Shown piece after piece: positions 5,634 to 11,366 of a DNA stretch of 64,000 nucleotides. Positions within the stretch are counted from its first letter, which is position 1, and each line of letters begins with the position of its first letter. The stretch comes from Shinella sp. WSJ-2 (GTDB lineage: Bacteria; Pseudomonadota; Alphaproteobacteria; Rhizobiales; Rhizobiaceae), in NCBI RefSeq assembly GCF_003432075.1, contig NZ_QWBU01000010.1, forward strand, positions 1 through 64,000, in the 5' to 3' direction. The notes beneath the pieces are model-generated. The model had not been told where the DNA came from, made no database searches, and saw nothing but the letters and a program-made list of their open reading frames with translations. The translations under genes and the position numbers were made by a program.

Positions 5634-5661
5634 AGGGCCCGGGCACGTGCCGGGCCTTTTT
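5634..5661 (+). terminator. Terminator between convergent genes
   Basis: A 7-bp stem (GGCCCGG / CCGGGCC) with a 7-nt loop is followed by five T. It ends the binding-protein gene. The T-run overlaps the stop codon of the minus-strand deacetylase gene, so it may also act, less well, in the other direction. Confidence 0.85.
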
Positions 5662-6397
5662 ACGCCGAGAGGATGACGGCTTCGATCCGACGGCTTTCGG
5701 CGGCATGGCCGGGGCATTGCATGGGGTCCGCGGCCGAGCCGGGATGCACCATCATGAGGCTGTCCGCCGGGGCGGCATCAAGTAGCCGTGGTAGCCAACG
5801 GGCCACCTGATCGGGATCGTCGAGGCGCAGGAAGCCGGAGAAATCGTGGTTCGTCGCCCAGCCCGCCTTGCGAAAGGTTCGCGCCGCCCGGGCGGCGAGC
5901 GCGGCGATCAGCAAAACCTTCGGACCGCCGGCGCGGACATTCAGCGTGAGGCCGGAGAGTGTGGCAGGGAGCGGGATGCGGATCCAGGTTTCCGTCCTAT
6001 GCGGTAATGTTGCCGCGCTGGCATCGAGACCGGGCAGGCAGTGGCAGTGCTGGTGTCCGTCATAGTAGTCGGGCAGAAAGCCGAAGACGGTCTGGAATGT
6101 TTCCGTCTGCCGCTGGAATTCATGCCTGATGTCTTCTGGCACACTGCCGGAAAGGCAGGCGCGGAGCAGGCGGCCGATGCCGCGATGGGCACCTTTCCCG
6201 GAGAAATCGTGTGTGACATTGAGGTGCAGTCCCACCTGCGCGCCGTGATTGCGCAAGAGGCGGAGCCGCTCGATGTCTGCGGGCGGGATGCCTCCGTCGA
6301 TCATCACCGACGTGCCGTCCAGCCGGCGGCGCTCGATCAGGTCCAGAATGACCCGATCGTGCTCGCGCCCCAGCCCGAAATCGTCGGCGATCCGCAT
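5660..6397 (-). CDS. ChbG/HpnK (YdjC) family carbohydrate deacetylase, NaxD-like
   Basis: A 245-residue metal-dependent deacetylase of the YdjC superfamily. Metal and catalytic motifs are ADDFG at residues 4-8, GLHLN with the conserved His, and the HQHCH cluster in the YDGHQHCHCLPG segment. The family removes N-acetyl groups from chito-oligosaccharides (ChbG), hopanoid glucosamine (HpnK) or undecaprenyl-phosphate N-acetylhexosamine (NaxD). It is the last gene of a four-gene minus-strand operon (GtrA, GT2, GT39, deacetylase), 7 nt after the GT39 stop and with GGAGTGAGGG before its ATG. That context argues for a lipid-linked sugar substrate as in NaxD rather than chitin. The N-terminus is short, with the ADDFG strand starting almost at Met1. 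Specificity is inferred. Confidence 0.8.
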   Translation of the reverse strand: MRIADDFGLGREHDRVILDLIERRRLDGTSVMIDGGIPPADIERLRLLRNHGAQVGLHLNVTHDFSGKGAHRGIGRLLRACLSGSVPEDIRHEFQRQTETFQTVFGFLPDYYDGHQHCHCLPGLDASAATLPHRTETWIRIPLPATLSGLTLNVRAGGPKVLLIAALAARAARTFRKAGWATNHDFSGFLRLDDPDQVARWLPRLLDAAPADSLMMVHPGSAADPMQCPGHAAESRRIEAVILSA

Positions 6398-6404
6398 CGT
6401 GCCC

Positions 6405-7916
6405 TCACTCCGCCGAGATATAGACGACCGCCAGTTCGAAATCGATCCGCTTGGGATAGCGGAACCCCGAACGATGTACGGTCAGAACTTTCGCCTCCGC
6501 CTTGAGGCCGTTTTCTGCGGCCCAGGCGATTGTTTCGTTCATGCAGGCCGTCTGGACCTTGCCCGGCAAAGCCAGGGAGCAGAGCACGACGCCGGCTTCG
6601 CTTTTCCAGCTTGCGCGTGGCGGATAATAGCCGGGTAGCCGGTCGGGAAGCGCCGGCAGTGCCTCGATCTCTTCCGGTGACAGCAGGGCAATATTGGCGG
6701 CATTGTTACCCGATGCGATCCATGCCAGCGGCTGGGTGTGTTCGCCCTTCCAGGTCTCGATGATCACCTGCGCGCTTTCTTCCCACGGCGTATACTGCTC
6801 CGTATTGCCCTTCACGCTCGCCATGACACCAGAAACGATGCCACCAACGATCATGAGCGGCCAGATGAAGCGGAAGGCAGAGACGATCTTGGGGCCGTTC
6901 GTTTCCAGCAGCGGCGCATCGGCATTGCGCACGAGATAGAGCGTGAAGGCGAGGCCGATCGGAATTGCCCAGGGTGTGGAGAGGACCGCGAGGCCGATGA
7001 TTGCGAAGCCGAGCGTGGTGAGCCATGGTCCGATGGCAACGAATGACAGCATGCTGTCGCCTGCCGGGCGCTTCAACAATTTTCCGAAGCGCCGCAGCGG
7101 CGAGCCTCCGACAAGGAAGAGCGCGGCGACGATTAGCGGCACCGGCCAATAGAAGAAGGGAGAGACCGCGAATTTTGCGATGTAGTAGATCGCCTCCTTC
7201 AACCCGTCGCCATTGCCTTGTTCGCTCGCATAAGCCACGGCTTCCCGGTGTTGGAGCAGCCAATAGAGATGCGGCGAGAGGATCAGCAGAAAGGCAATGA
7301 GAGCAATCCAGGGAACGGCGGTGAACCAGAGATGCCGTCGCGCGGATGTGAAGGTGCTCGCAAAAAGCGGGATGAGCAGTACGACGGAATAGTATTTGCT
7401 GAGGATCGATATGGCGGCGATGACGCCAAATAGCAGGGCATAGAGGTTTCTGCGACCACCCTCCGATGTCGTCACGCGCACGAACGCCCACGCCGTCCAG
7501 GGCCAGGTGGCGAGGCAGATCGAGTTCATGTTGAGCTTGCTGCTCAATGTCAGATAGGGCAGCGCCAGGACGCACAGGGCAAGCGCTACGGCGATGTGCC
7601 GCTCTTCGAATTTCAATGCCCGCGCGAGAGCTCGGATGCCGAATAGCGCGACGGCGAGATTGACCGCAGAGAGCAGATAGAAGGATGCCACGCTCTGCGG
7701 CGCAACCATGAACCACAGCTTCGCCATCCAGGGCAGGAACTGCGGGTGCTTGCTGGATCCGAGAAGCCAGTGCTGCGACCAGGCATAGACCTCCGCCATG
7801 TCGCCATACCCATCGAGCACGGTTTTTGCGGCGATGGTCATCAACCACCAAACGAGGGCATGGATCAGGATGAAGGGCGTCGTCCTGGTGAAGAATGCGT
7901 CTTTGCCTGTCGTCAT
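6405..7916 (-). CDS. Glycosyltransferase family 39 protein (ArnT/FlmK-like membrane transferase)
   Basis: A 503-residue integral membrane protein with about ten or more hydrophobic segments in the first 380 residues and a soluble periplasmic C-terminal domain. The first periplasmic loop contains DGYGDMAEVYAWSQHW followed by HPQF, the acidic loop that holds the catalytic Asp in the GT39/ArnT superfamily. These enzymes use a polyprenyl-phosphate sugar donor on the periplasmic side and transfer it to lipid A or another envelope acceptor. Its start overlaps the GT2 stop by ATGA, so the two are translationally coupled. With GtrA, GT2 and a YdjC deacetylase it forms an Arn/Flm-like pathway. The acceptor (lipid A, core or another glycolipid) is not visible from sequence. 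Confidence 0.8.
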   Translation of the reverse strand: MTTGKDAFFTRTTPFILIHALVWWLMTIAAKTVLDGYGDMAEVYAWSQHWLLGSSKHPQFLPWMAKLWFMVAPQSVASFYLLSAVNLAVALFGIRALARALKFEERHIAVALALCVLALPYLTLSSKLNMNSICLATWPWTAWAFVRVTTSEGGRRNLYALLFGVIAAISILSKYYSVVLLIPLFASTFTSARRHLWFTAVPWIALIAFLLILSPHLYWLLQHREAVAYASEQGNGDGLKEAIYYIAKFAVSPFFYWPVPLIVAALFLVGGSPLRRFGKLLKRPAGDSMLSFVAIGPWLTTLGFAIIGLAVLSTPWAIPIGLAFTLYLVRNADAPLLETNGPKIVSAFRFIWPLMIVGGIVSGVMASVKGNTEQYTPWEESAQVIIETWKGEHTQPLAWIASGNNAANIALLSPEEIEALPALPDRLPGYYPPRASWKSEAGVVLCSLALPGKVQTACMNETIAWAAENGLKAEAKVLTVHRSGFRYPKRIDFELAVVYISAE

Positions 7917-8914
7917 GGAGAAGCCTGATTGTCCGTCGCCTGGTGAACGGCGATCTCTGGCGTTGCGCCGAATGTGACGTCTTGCGCCAGAAGGTAGGCG
8001 GGGCGGCGTTTCGCTTCGAGGACGGTTTTTCCGATATATTCCCCGAGAAGGCCGAGGAAGATCATCTGGATACCGCCAAAGAAGGAAACGAGCGCAAGCA
8101 CCGAGGAAATGCCGATGCCGCTCGACATGAAGAACAGACGCTCGATGACGATATAGAGACCATAAAGCGAACTGAGACCGGCAATGACGAGGCCCGCCAC
8201 GCCCATCAGCCGCAGCGGTGCGGTGGTGAAGCTGGTCATCGCATCGAAAGACAGGGCCACGAGGCGCCAGGCATTGAAGCTGGAAACGCCGTGCTGGCGC
8301 GGCGGCGGCGTCATCGGCACACCGCGCTGCTGGAAGCCGACCCAGCCGTAAAGCCCTTTCATGAAGCGTTCGCTTTCCGGCAGCTGGCGCAAGGCATTCG
8401 CGAAGCGCCGGCTGATCAGCCGGAAGTCGCCGGCATTCTGTGTGATGTCGAAGCGCGTGCCGCGATTGATGATCCAGTAGAAGCCGCCGGTCAGGGCGGA
8501 TTTCAGCCAGCCTTCGGAGACGCGGCGGTCTTCTTTGTACGCATAGACGCTGTCGATGCCCTCCGCACGCCAGATGCGCACGAGATCGAGGACAAGTTCG
8601 GGCGGATGCTGAAGATCGGCGTCCATCATCACGATCGCATCCACATCCGCTGCCGCTTCGATGCCGGCGGAGAGCGCAGCCTCCTTGCCGAAATTGCGGG
8701 AGAACTGCAGCAGGCGCACGGCCCTACCCAGGAAGTCGGTTCGTGCGAGCAGGTCAAAACTGCCATCGCGGCTGCCGTCGTCGATGAAGACATATGAGGT
8801 CGTCACACCGTGCTCGTCCCGAAGACGGCCGGCGATGAGGTTCAGCCTCTCCACGAGAGCCGTCAGGTTTTCCGCCTCGTTATAGATCGGAACGACGATC
8901 GCGATGGTGCTCAT
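7913..8914 (-). CDS. GT2 polyprenyl-phosphate glycosyltransferase (GtrB/ArnC/FlmF2 type)
   Basis: A 333-residue enzyme with an N-terminal GT-A domain (IAIVVPIYNEAENL, DDGSRDGS, and the MMDADLQHPPEL metal-binding DXD region) and two C-terminal membrane helices (about 230-300), the architecture of DPM1-like GtrB and ArnC proteins. Such enzymes transfer a sugar from a nucleotide donor to undecaprenyl phosphate on the cytoplasmic side. The start at 8914 is chosen because its ATG overlaps the GtrA stop (ATGA) and gives MSTIAIVVPIYNE; the longer open frame to 9100 only overlaps GtrA. The product would be flipped by GtrA and used by the GT39 protein. Sugar identity is unknown, but the deacetylase suggests an N-acetylhexosamine. 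Confidence 0.85.
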   Translation of the reverse strand: MSTIAIVVPIYNEAENLTALVERLNLIAGRLRDEHGVTTSYVFIDDGSRDGSFDLLARTDFLGRAVRLLQFSRNFGKEAALSAGIEAAADVDAIVMMDADLQHPPELVLDLVRIWRAEGIDSVYAYKEDRRVSEGWLKSALTGGFYWIINRGTRFDITQNAGDFRLISRRFANALRQLPESERFMKGLYGWVGFQQRGVPMTPPPRQHGVSSFNAWRLVALSFDAMTSFTTAPLRLMGVAGLVIAGLSSLYGLYIVIERLFFMSSGIGISSVLALVSFFGGIQMIFLGLLGEYIGKTVLEAKRRPAYLLAQDVTFGATPEIAVHQATDNQASP

Positions 8915-9363
8915 TCGCTTCCCTTCAGGAAGATTAACATGGACGAGACGGCGAAATTGAACACCGAGACGATGACGATGACGACGGCAAGGGCGATGGG
9001 AAGCGGAACGTCGGCGAGAACGAAAGCGTGCAGCAGAAGGGCGCGCAGAGCAAAAACCACGACGGCCAGAAGCAGGAAGCGAATGTAGCGCCGCTGCCAT
9101 CCCGCCTTGCTGCCGGGAAAGGTGATTTTTTCATGATAGGCGAAGACGACCGAGGCACTGACGGCCATGGAGAGGGCGAGCGCCACGCTTGGCGAGACAC
9201 CCATGAGGGAACTCAGGAGCAGCGTTGCCACATAGTCAATCACCGCCCCGATGAGCGAGCCGCCCCCGAAGGTGAGAAAACGCTTTGCCAGCGATATATA
9301 GGGCGTAAGTGCTGCCATCGTCGACGAAAAAGGCGCCGTCACATGCGCGATCGGCCAATGCAT
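8911..9363 (-). CDS. GtrA-family membrane protein (putative lipid-linked sugar flippase)
   Basis: A 150-residue protein with four predicted transmembrane helices, of GtrA/DPMS2-like length. Typical features are FGGGSLIGAVIDY in helix 1 and FAYHEKITF between helices 2 and 3, with NF in the last helix. GtrA proteins are thought to flip polyprenyl-phosphate sugars made by the partner GT2 enzyme, or to anchor that enzyme. It is the first gene of the minus-strand operon and its stop overlaps the GT2 start. The start is uncertain: Met1 (9363) has no good Shine-Dalgarno sequence, and an internal Met at 9318 would give 135 residues and still keep all helices. Confidence 0.8.
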   Translation of the reverse strand: MHWPIAHVTAPFSSTMAALTPYISLAKRFLTFGGGSLIGAVIDYVATLLLSSLMGVSPSVALALSMAVSASVVFAYHEKITFPGSKAGWQRRYIRFLLLAVVVFALRALLLHAFVLADVPLPIALAVVIVIVSVFNFAVSSMLIFLKGSE

Positions 9364-9492: not shown

Positions 9493-10116
9493 ATGGCGAA
9501 GAAGACGACGAGACGGAAAAAAACGACGGGTGCGAAGCGGGCATCGCCCGCCACGCGGCATGGCGGCATGGCACATTGGTATGTGCTGGGTGCGGCGGTG
9601 ATCGGCGGGATTGTTTACATGGATTATCGCGGGCCGGGACCGGAGCCTGCAGCGACCGGCATTCGTACGGCTTCCATCGAACGCACGGAAAAGAAGGCCG
9701 AGCGCGAGGCGGTGCAGGTCAAGCCGAAACAGCGGCCCTCACAGCTTGAAGAACTGGCGCTTCCTGCCGCCGAAAAGCTGCCGGCCTTTTCCGGAAAGTG
9801 GTTCATCTGCACCACGCAGACCGATTATTGCGTGCTCGACGGCAGCACGATCCTCTATGCCGGCCGGAAGGTGCGGCTTGCCGATATCGACGCGCCGGCC
9901 ATTGCGGAGGCGAAATGCGATGCGGAGCGCTCACGCGGCGGCGATGCAAAGCTGCGCCTGCGGGAAATCTTGAGCGAGGGCGACGTCTCGCTTGTCGCAG
10001 CCCAGGGCGAGGGAAGACATCTCGTGATGCGCGACGGCCGATCGATCGGCCAGCGGCTCGTTCAGGAGGGCTTTGCCCGGTCGTGGACGGGACGGCATCA
10101 ATCCTGGTGCGGCTGA
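9493..10116 (+). CDS. Membrane-anchored SNase-like (thermonuclease family) protein, active site degenerate
   Basis: A 207-residue protein: a Lys/Arg-rich N-terminus (residues 1-22), one transmembrane segment (about 27-43, HWYVLGAAVIGGIVYM), a Pro/Glu/Lys linker, and a C-terminal OB-fold domain resembling staphylococcal nuclease. The domain shows VLDGSTI, KVRLADIDAP and VMRDGRSIGQRLVQEGFAR at family positions. Active nucleases usually have DGDT and an acidic residue after DAP; here these read DGST and DAPAI, so catalysis is doubtful. AGGAG precedes the ATG at 9493. The larger open frame upstream runs antisense through gtrA and is not coding. The protein would face the periplasm. Function unknown; a binding role is possible. 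Confidence 0.65.
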   Translation: MAKKTTRRKKTTGAKRASPATRHGGMAHWYVLGAAVIGGIVYMDYRGPGPEPAATGIRTASIERTEKKAEREAVQVKPKQRPSQLEELALPAAEKLPAFSGKWFICTTQTDYCVLDGSTILYAGRKVRLADIDAPAIAEAKCDAERSRGGDAKLRLREILSEGDVSLVAAQGEGRHLVMRDGRSIGQRLVQEGFARSWTGRHQSWCG

Positions 10117-10437: not shown

Positions 10438-11277
10438 TCAGCCGGCGGCCACGATCTGGCGCTGCGTGCCGAGGCCGGCAATGGACACTTCCATGCGGTC
10501 GCCCGGCTTCAGATAACGCGGCGGCTTCATGCCCATGCCGACGCCGGGCGGCGTGCCCGTCGTGATGACGTCACCGGGCTCCAGGATCATGAACTGCGAG
10601 ATGTAGTGCACGAGGAACGGCACCTTGAAGACCATGGTGCTCGACGAACCGTTCTGCACCAGTTTGCCGTTGACGCTCAGCGTCATCGCAAGATCGGATG
10701 TATCCACCTCGTCTTCCGTCACCAGCCAGGGGCCGATCGGGCCGAAGGTCGGGCAACCCTTGCCCTTGGTCCACTGGCCGCCACGCTCGATCTGGTAGGC
10801 GCGCTCGGAAATATCGTTGCAGACGCAGTAGCCGGCCACGTAGTTCAGGGCATCGGCCTCCGAGACGTAGGAAGCGCGCTCGCCAATGACGACCGCAAGT
10901 TCGACTTCCCAGTCGGTCTTTTCCGAGCCGCGCGGAATGAGGATCGTATCGTCGGGGCCACCGATGCAGGAGGGGGCCTTGTTGAACAGCACGGGCTCGG
11001 CCGGCACCGCCATGCCGCTTTCGGCGGCGTGGTCTGCATAGTTCAGGCCGACGGCGATGAAGTTGCCGACGCGGCCGACGCAGGCGCCGTAGCGGCTGCC
11101 TTCCGGCGCAAGCGGCAGGCTTGCCGGATCAAGCGCGCGCAGGCGCTCGCGGCCCGCGCGGCTCAGCACATCGCCGGAAATATCCGCGACGACGCCTGAG
11201 AGGTCGCGGATCTTCCCATCCGCATCGATCAGTCCGGGCTTTTCCGCGCCCGCCGCGCCAAAGCGCACCAGTTTCAT
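10438..11277 (-). CDS. Fumarylacetoacetate hydrolase (FAH) family protein
   Basis: A 279-residue member of the FAH superfamily (Mg/Mn-dependent C-C hydrolases, decarboxylases and isomerases such as 2-hydroxyhepta-2,4-diene-1,7-dioate isomerase or acylpyruvate hydrolase). The C-terminal domain shows the metal-binding set: GLNYADHA, the EVELAVVIG acidic pair, and NDISERAYQ, with TGTPPGVGMG near the end. The start at 11277 (MKLVRFG) is preferred over 11289 because GGAGGA lies just before it. It is divergent from a GntR-family gene with a perfect palindrome between them, so the regulator probably controls it. The substrate, likely an acylpyruvate or ring-cleavage product, cannot be named. Confidence 0.85.
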   Translation of the reverse strand: MKLVRFGAAGAEKPGLIDADGKIRDLSGVVADISGDVLSRAGRERLRALDPASLPLAPEGSRYGACVGRVGNFIAVGLNYADHAAESGMAVPAEPVLFNKAPSCIGGPDDTILIPRGSEKTDWEVELAVVIGERASYVSEADALNYVAGYCVCNDISERAYQIERGGQWTKGKGCPTFGPIGPWLVTEDEVDTSDLAMTLSVNGKLVQNGSSSTMVFKVPFLVHYISQFMILEPGDVITTGTPPGVGMGMKPPRYLKPGDRMEVSIAGLGTQRQIVAAG

Positions 11278-11366
11278 GCTGTCCTCCATTCAAATGCCGG
11301 CCTTTGTGGCCGGTGTGACCGATTTCGGTTGCAGGCACCATCTATCCGGTTTTACATAGAGTCAAC

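Follow-up and report, generated by a model that had tools for sequence, protein, structure and literature searches.

A mobile four-gene cassette of Shinella with a GtrA-GT2-YdjC donor module and an apparently exchanged GT39 transferase, probably adding a free-amine hexosamine to an envelope glycolipid

The 64,000-nucleotide stretch of Shinella sp. WSJ-2 analysed here (contig NZ_QWBU01000010.1, positions 1 to 64,000; hereafter the window) carries at 5660-9363, on the minus strand, an operon encoding, in this order, a GtrA-like membrane protein, a family 2 glycosyltransferase (GT2), a family 39 glycosyltransferase (GT39) of the PMT_2 family and a YdjC-family deacetylase. Sequence comparison indicates that GtrA, GT2 and YdjC constitute a donor module of common ancestry with loci of Hoeflea and Ochrobactrum, on which the transferase has been swapped. 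What the present work adds is this swap, made on a donor module that is itself conserved, and no earlier report of it was seen in the open-licence literature listings, in which the exchange was not queried by name. The operon probably represents a mobile cassette that places a free-amine hexosamine on an envelope glycolipid, lipid A or the inner core being the most probable acceptor. Amino sugars that mask the charge of the outer membrane are familiar chiefly from a small number of pathogens; the Shinella operon would extend amino-sugar donor chemistry, as an accessory cassette with its last enzyme swapped, to soil bacteria.

The exchange is apparent from eight sister loci (L033-L040) of Brucella tritici, a Rhizobiales isolate, Hoeflea, Ochrobactrum chromiisoli and two metagenome-assembled genomes (MAGs), whose YdjC proteins are 53-58% identical to that of the window; in the six loci compared for the other genes (L033-L037, L040), GtrA is 42-51% and GT2 58-63% identical to the window proteins. 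These loci have the GtrA-GT2-YdjC donor set in common with the window, but their fourth gene encodes an ArnT-type transferase, placed after YdjC in 8/8. No window-type GT39 was found in any of the seven genomes of the Hoeflea/Ochrobactrum kind that were searched (L038 lying outside the search), and the ArnT-type profile gave no match in the six cassette-bearing Shinella genomes and matched in part in one of the remaining genomes of the 21. In a quick YdjC tree of 88 rows, from which L021 was dropped as belonging to the same genome as L030, the window kind and the Hoeflea/Ochrobactrum kind fell into one 17-row set (Shimodaira-Hasegawa-like approximate likelihood ratio test, SH-aLRT, 100), and a careful tree of 32 hand-chosen rows of the 88 placed both in one 13-row set (support 100/100). 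The quick GT2 tree (78 rows, L021 and L028 dropped, only pieces over 100 bits) similarly joined the seven window-kind rows to the seven Hoeflea/Ochrobactrum-kind rows having a GT2, with a support of 97. The nearest outside relatives of the GT39 protein were found in four-gene modules of Comamonas kerstersii and Acidovorax (support 98 in a quick tree of 29 rows over 60 bits, one of them, L104, being a distant additional gene from a locus of ArnT type), and forcing the Shinella-kind YdjC proteins together with those of C. kerstersii and Acidovorax was rejected (log-likelihood 227 lower; approximately unbiased test, p-AU, 2.9e-79). Since the YdjC trees join both kinds and the Comamonadaceae grouping is rejected, the carrier module appears to have had its transferase exchanged.

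A preliminary description of this region had presented the GT39 protein as ArnT-like, which holds for its predicted fold and fails for its sequence. The AlphaFold2 (AF2) model (predicted local distance difference test, pLDDT, 86.6) found its best fold match in ArnT of Cupriavidus metallidurans (5ezm; Z 26.1, root-mean-square deviation, rmsd, 5.4 over 428 residues, model residues 6-503), ahead of a second group represented by the protein O-mannosyltransferase Pmt4 (Z 24.3, rmsd 3.9, residues 5-366 only) and of other GT-C enzymes (Z 24 and lower). The model shares with ArnT a GT-C fold followed by a C-terminal extramembrane domain, which would lie on the periplasmic side. At the sequence level, the protein had no match among PDB sequences, and a profile of its relatives retrieved only the ubiquitin hydrolase USP7 (E 0.5-0.7), that is, no relative of known structure. 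The curated NCBIfam ArnT model PRK13279 did not match the window protein at E up to 0.01; it matched all 16 ArnT-type rows scanned (16 of 17 found, L039 left out), whose loci include those of Hoeflea, Bordetella and Acinetobacter, and one of 15 GT39-type rows (E 0.0018), the window protein not being among the matches. BLAST against the ArnT-type transferase of sister locus L034 likewise gave no similarity (E 1.5), and the two results together rule out an assignment as ArnT by sequence. Profile-profile comparison of the GT39 group with the ArnT-type group (13% identity over 197 columns, probability 97.4, E 1.3e-11) indicates that they are distant relatives from different families, and the label 'ArnT-like' for a GT39 beside a deacetylase can mislead.

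As regards the donor, the preliminary description is probably right in its chemistry, whereas its claim on the acceptor was too confident. Its view of the GT2 as a synthase of carrier-linked sugar is upheld by a profile of ten relatives, which matched GtrB sll0501 (5ekp, E 6.3e-112) and ArnC (9hwj, E 1.4e-64) in the PDB; two hydrophobic segments lie inside residues 238-289, and the protein is, by its profile matches, of the GtrB/ArnC polyprenyl-phosphate type. GtrB and ArnC are enzymes that put a sugar onto undecaprenyl phosphate. A role of GtrA as flippase is put forward as a proposal in a passage of PMC11127046.

The NaxD-like reading of the deacetylase is supported as well. Residues D5, D6, H58, D113, G114, H115, Q116 and H117 showed no variation across 32 aligned rows, and the sequence thus holds the D-D, H and H-H motifs of the YdjC type, presumably metal-binding and catalytic. 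The protein shares 33% identity with a Bordetella petrii deacetylase, from a locus that we take to have the lgm layout, and 30% with one of Acinetobacter colistiniresistens that we take to be NaxD-type, and it lacks any hydrophobic segment, in keeping with a cytoplasmic enzyme. A carrier-sugar synthase gene, the GT2, lies close by, which is a trait of NaxD/LgmC-like enzymes; together with the motifs and the parallel to NaxD and LgmC, this suggests that YdjC would act on carrier-linked N-acetylhexosamine (HexNAc). In the A. colistiniresistens locus (L105:8726-11063), some 1.3 kb separates the two pieces in which the GT2 by the deacetylase matches, as though the gene were interrupted.

Comparison of the deacetylase with ChbG gave a divided answer: the AF2 model (pLDDT 96.2) has ChbG (7vi8, E 2.2e-9, TM 0.71) as its closest solved structure, and the curated ChbG model, although the top one in NCBIfam, scored 29.7 bits against a cut-off of 227. 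A role in ChbG-like chitobiose catabolism with no part in the envelope is thus very improbable and is ruled out by the curated score; the coupling of YdjC to membrane glycosyltransferases also argues against it, with a GT2 of GtrB/ArnC type within 2 kb of YdjC in 67/80 loci (counts of YdjC loci refer throughout to the 80 top-ranking stretches among 475 confirmed ones, i.e. the closest relatives only). An HpnK-like modification of hopanoids, at which a weak score of 22.6 bits might hint, is hardly credible given the cut-off of 232.6 bits and the absence of any SQHop_cyclase_N match in the Shinella genome (100% complete as listed), which together rule it out; as a control, the same search gave a match in one of 14 genomes, that of Bacillus subtilis. 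All 32 rows matched both the ChbG and the HpnK model at E 0.001 or better, and these models therefore cannot separate subgroups.

In the proposed pathway, GT2 would, as its family suggests, use a UDP-sugar to load polyprenyl phosphate with N-acetylhexosamine at the cytoplasmic face, and soluble YdjC would then strip the N-acetyl group from the carrier-linked sugar in the cytoplasm. GtrA may help the carrier-sugar to reach the periplasmic face, where GT39 would hand over the sugar, by then positively charged, to an acceptor that is most probably lipid A or the inner core, at a phosphate or a sugar residue. Lipid A appears to be the likeliest acceptor because of the ArnT fold of the modelled transferase, the sister loci, and signs of lipid A phosphates, whose presence is suggested by two EptA_B_N matches in the genome (E 1.9e-40 and a weak one at E 6.7e-5). 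One EptA_B_N match, at G000:C1:622941-623381, falls in a 548-aa open reading frame (ORF), so that the genome may encode another means of masking these phosphates. The genome also encodes a single PAP2 protein. A further sign of lipid A phosphates is that, for Agrobacterium fabrum, a missing C-1 phosphate is treated as a variant in passages of PMC11901934.

The analogy with Francisella and Bordetella drawn in the preliminary description stands for donor synthesis and breaks down at the transferase. In Francisella, galactosamine reaches lipid A in three successive steps, loading by FlmF2, deacetylation by NaxD and transfer by FlmK, a likeness compared here by description. Excerpts of PMC4688374 cover flmF2, flmK and lipid A galactosamine, and NaxD appears as a cited title in PMC8149597. 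In the lgm system of Bordetella, an ArnC/GtrB-type GT2, a YdjC-type deacetylase and a GT-C transferase share out the same tasks, and the B. petrii GT2 is 40% identical to that of the window, beside the 33% found for YdjC. At L075, which we take from its layout to be an lgm locus, a weak GtrA-like match (29 bits) is found alongside. GT2 neighbours YdjC in both systems, though in the window GT39 sits between them. The two differ in gene order and in the transferase, LgmB being ArnT-type and the window GT39 not; moreover, the acceptor is established in Bordetella, where lipid A glucosamine appears as +161 in passages of PMC11895810 and PMC5454989. According to excerpts, the addition of glucosamine to Bordetella lipid A phosphates requires lgmA, lgmB and lgmC, while lgmD is dispensable (PMC4993483), and loss of lgmB leads to lower cationic peptide resistance (PMC8168481).

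Two other acceptor classes have to be considered. Seroconversion systems are often patchy, and the cassette is patchy in its genus (6/21); a Gtr-like three-component system acting on O-antigen, core oligosaccharide or another polysaccharide, with the deacetylase giving an amino sugar side chain, would also fit the GT39 sequence, unlike that of ArnT-type enzymes. The combination of GtrA, a GtrB-type GT2 and a GT-C enzyme in one operon is the layout given for periplasmic O-antigen glycosylation in a passage of PMC11127046, from which the window operon differs by including a deacetylase. This alternative is nonetheless rather doubtful, as the full-length predicted fold is nearest to ArnT, a lipid A enzyme, and the sister loci carry ArnT-type transferases; a by-eye reading recognised no O-antigen genes beside the operon. 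Transfer of the free-amine hexosamine onto a phospholipid, lipoprotein or periplasmic protein is distinctly unlikely: PMT_2 includes protein mannosyltransferases and Pmt4 represents the second fold group, but the Pmt4 alignment is confined to the N-terminal part of the model, while ArnT aligns with the C-terminal part included, and no dedicated acceptor gene was recognised among the operon neighbours on reading by eye.

Several points weigh against an origin by transferase exchange followed by action on lipid A. By the ArnT-model and BLAST results the GT39 lacks ArnT sequence signatures, and the lead of ArnT over Pmt4 in the fold comparison is small, so that the acceptor may differ; the identity of the sugar is not readable from sequence, and a literature listing on Shinella and lipid A, judged by title, held nothing on the structure of the latter. 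As for the trees, the 17-row YdjC set includes two Rhodobacteraceae on a long branch flagged by the program, the quick GT2 and GT39 trees carry long-branch warnings, and the window-kind YdjC proteins formed one clade in just 39% of bootstrap trees, so that the exchange may have happened more than once and in either direction. Finally, 39/80 YdjC loci had none of the three long partner types within 5 kb, and these counts come without a random-locus comparison. A chosen-word search of two Ochrobactrum/B. intermedia papers found no amino-sugar passages, and a word search of PMC11401268 gave nothing.

More tentatively, GtrA-GT2-YdjC may be a portable supply of free-amine hexosamine on polyprenyl phosphate, fitted with differing GT-C families, and the swap in Shinella may redirect the charged sugar away from the lipid A phosphates used by ArnT and LgmB. 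If true, such redirection of a portable module would be a new class of cationic surface decoration. The Shinella and Hoeflea loci form natural matched pairs, which could show what sets the acceptor of ArnT-like enzymes.

The association of the four genes was seen beyond the window. When GT39 alone was used as query against 199 genomes of the family, three others carried it at >=50% identity (G075, G163, G081) and all three had the four genes in the same order, which makes the operon more than chance; the further four-gene Shinella loci (L031, L032, L041, PSBB067) count less, as they were found using YdjC or GT39. The closest YdjC loci were those of Shinella curvata (80% identity), Shinella sp. 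CPCC 101442 (78%), S. sumterensis (68%) and S. daejeonensis (64%). Within 5 kb of YdjC, a GtrA-like gene was present at 46 loci, a GT39-type transferase at 20, an ArnT-type one at 17 and a third long type at four. The remaining 13 loci lack a GT2 at 2 kb or less; at L038 the contig offers fewer than 200 bases ahead of YdjC, and at L055, L070 and L081 a GT2 lies somewhat further away. Proteins of the third long type measure 553-575 aa and accompany YdjC and GT2 in three Ancylobacter genomes and one Rhodospirillales MAG (L059, L062, L073, L102). Across 297 Rhizobiaceae genomes, YdjC exceeded the cut-off at 51 places in 50 genomes, with PMT_2 within 5 kb at at least 22 of the 51 (hand count); PMT_2 itself is widespread (207/297). 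A set of the same families, GT2-YdjC(-GtrA) adjoining PMT_2, occurs in Rhizobiaceae and Phyllobacteriaceae (L024-L026, L028, L029, L087, L100) at what seems one conserved place, unlike the movable Shinella cassette, and differs from the window in that its GT39 is just 23-26% identical and its deacetylase lies in a separate branch.

Within Shinella, the cassette is accessory and mobile, occurring at more than one genomic place. It was found, complete with all four genes, in six of 21 genomes, whereas the neighbour gene at 10441-11289 was present in 21/21. In the window, L030, L032 and L041 it adjoins the same four backbone genes, and the eight cassette-free genomes compared out of 15 (L120-L124, L126, L127, L131) all had these backbone genes, with the cassette there in 0/8. 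In L031/L129 and L119/L128 the cassette occupies a place apart from these backbone genes; the L119/L128 genome has its backbone region at L125, where no cassette is present. A plasmid search returned a single record, from Shinella sp. PSBB067, in which the stretch is without annotated features. A different YdjC (E 9.9e-46), with no PMT_2 match, occurs in a Shinella genome lacking the cassette (G157, C3:716728-717507).

The layout given in the preliminary description, with four minus-strand genes, two ATGA overlaps (GtrA/GT2 and GT2/GT39) and the deacetylase start 7 nt after the GT39 stop, agrees with the coordinates and with Pfam, where each of the four families scored above cut-off (Table 1).

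Table 1. Features of the Shinella operon and their proposed functions.
Feature	Position	Strand	Evidence
GtrA-like four-helix membrane protein, proposed carrier-lipid flippase or GT2 partner	8911..9363	-	PF04138 E 3.2e-15; four hydrophobic segments; precedes GT2 in sister loci
GT2, GtrB/ArnC type, proposed polyprenyl-phosphate N-acetylhexosamine synthase	7913..8914	-	PF00535 E 2.6e-18; PDB profile matches; two C-terminal membrane helices
GT39/PMT_2 GT-C enzyme, proposed periplasmic aminohexosyl transferase, not ArnT by sequence	6405..7916	-	PF13231 E 2.9e-20; AF2 fold match ArnT 5ezm
YdjC-family deacetylase, proposed cytoplasmic, substrate carrier-linked HexNAc	5660..6397	-	PF04794 E 1.5e-29; invariant motifs; AF2 fold match ChbG 7vi8
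Terminator-like stem directly 3' of YdjC, possible operon end	5636..5656	-	7 G-C pairs and T-rich tail

The GtrA coordinate 9363 corresponds to the first ATG, and the actual start may be an inner ATG. The terminator-like site is weak alone, because the region holds five such sites against 3.2 (standard deviation, sd, 2.0) in shuffles, and a promoter scan found none. The G+C content of the operon (61.4%) matches that of the window (62.0%), and domain searches of the genome found one PMT_2 and one YdjC protein. The flanking genes were labelled by eye (Taut, FAH, GntR, TolC, SNase, BP6, DHDPS, AHS), and a Pfam scan of BP6 and the so-called SNase matched BP6 alone. Beside the cassette, the plus-strand ORF at 9499-10116, which had no Pfam match, was present in all Shinella backbone regions compared.

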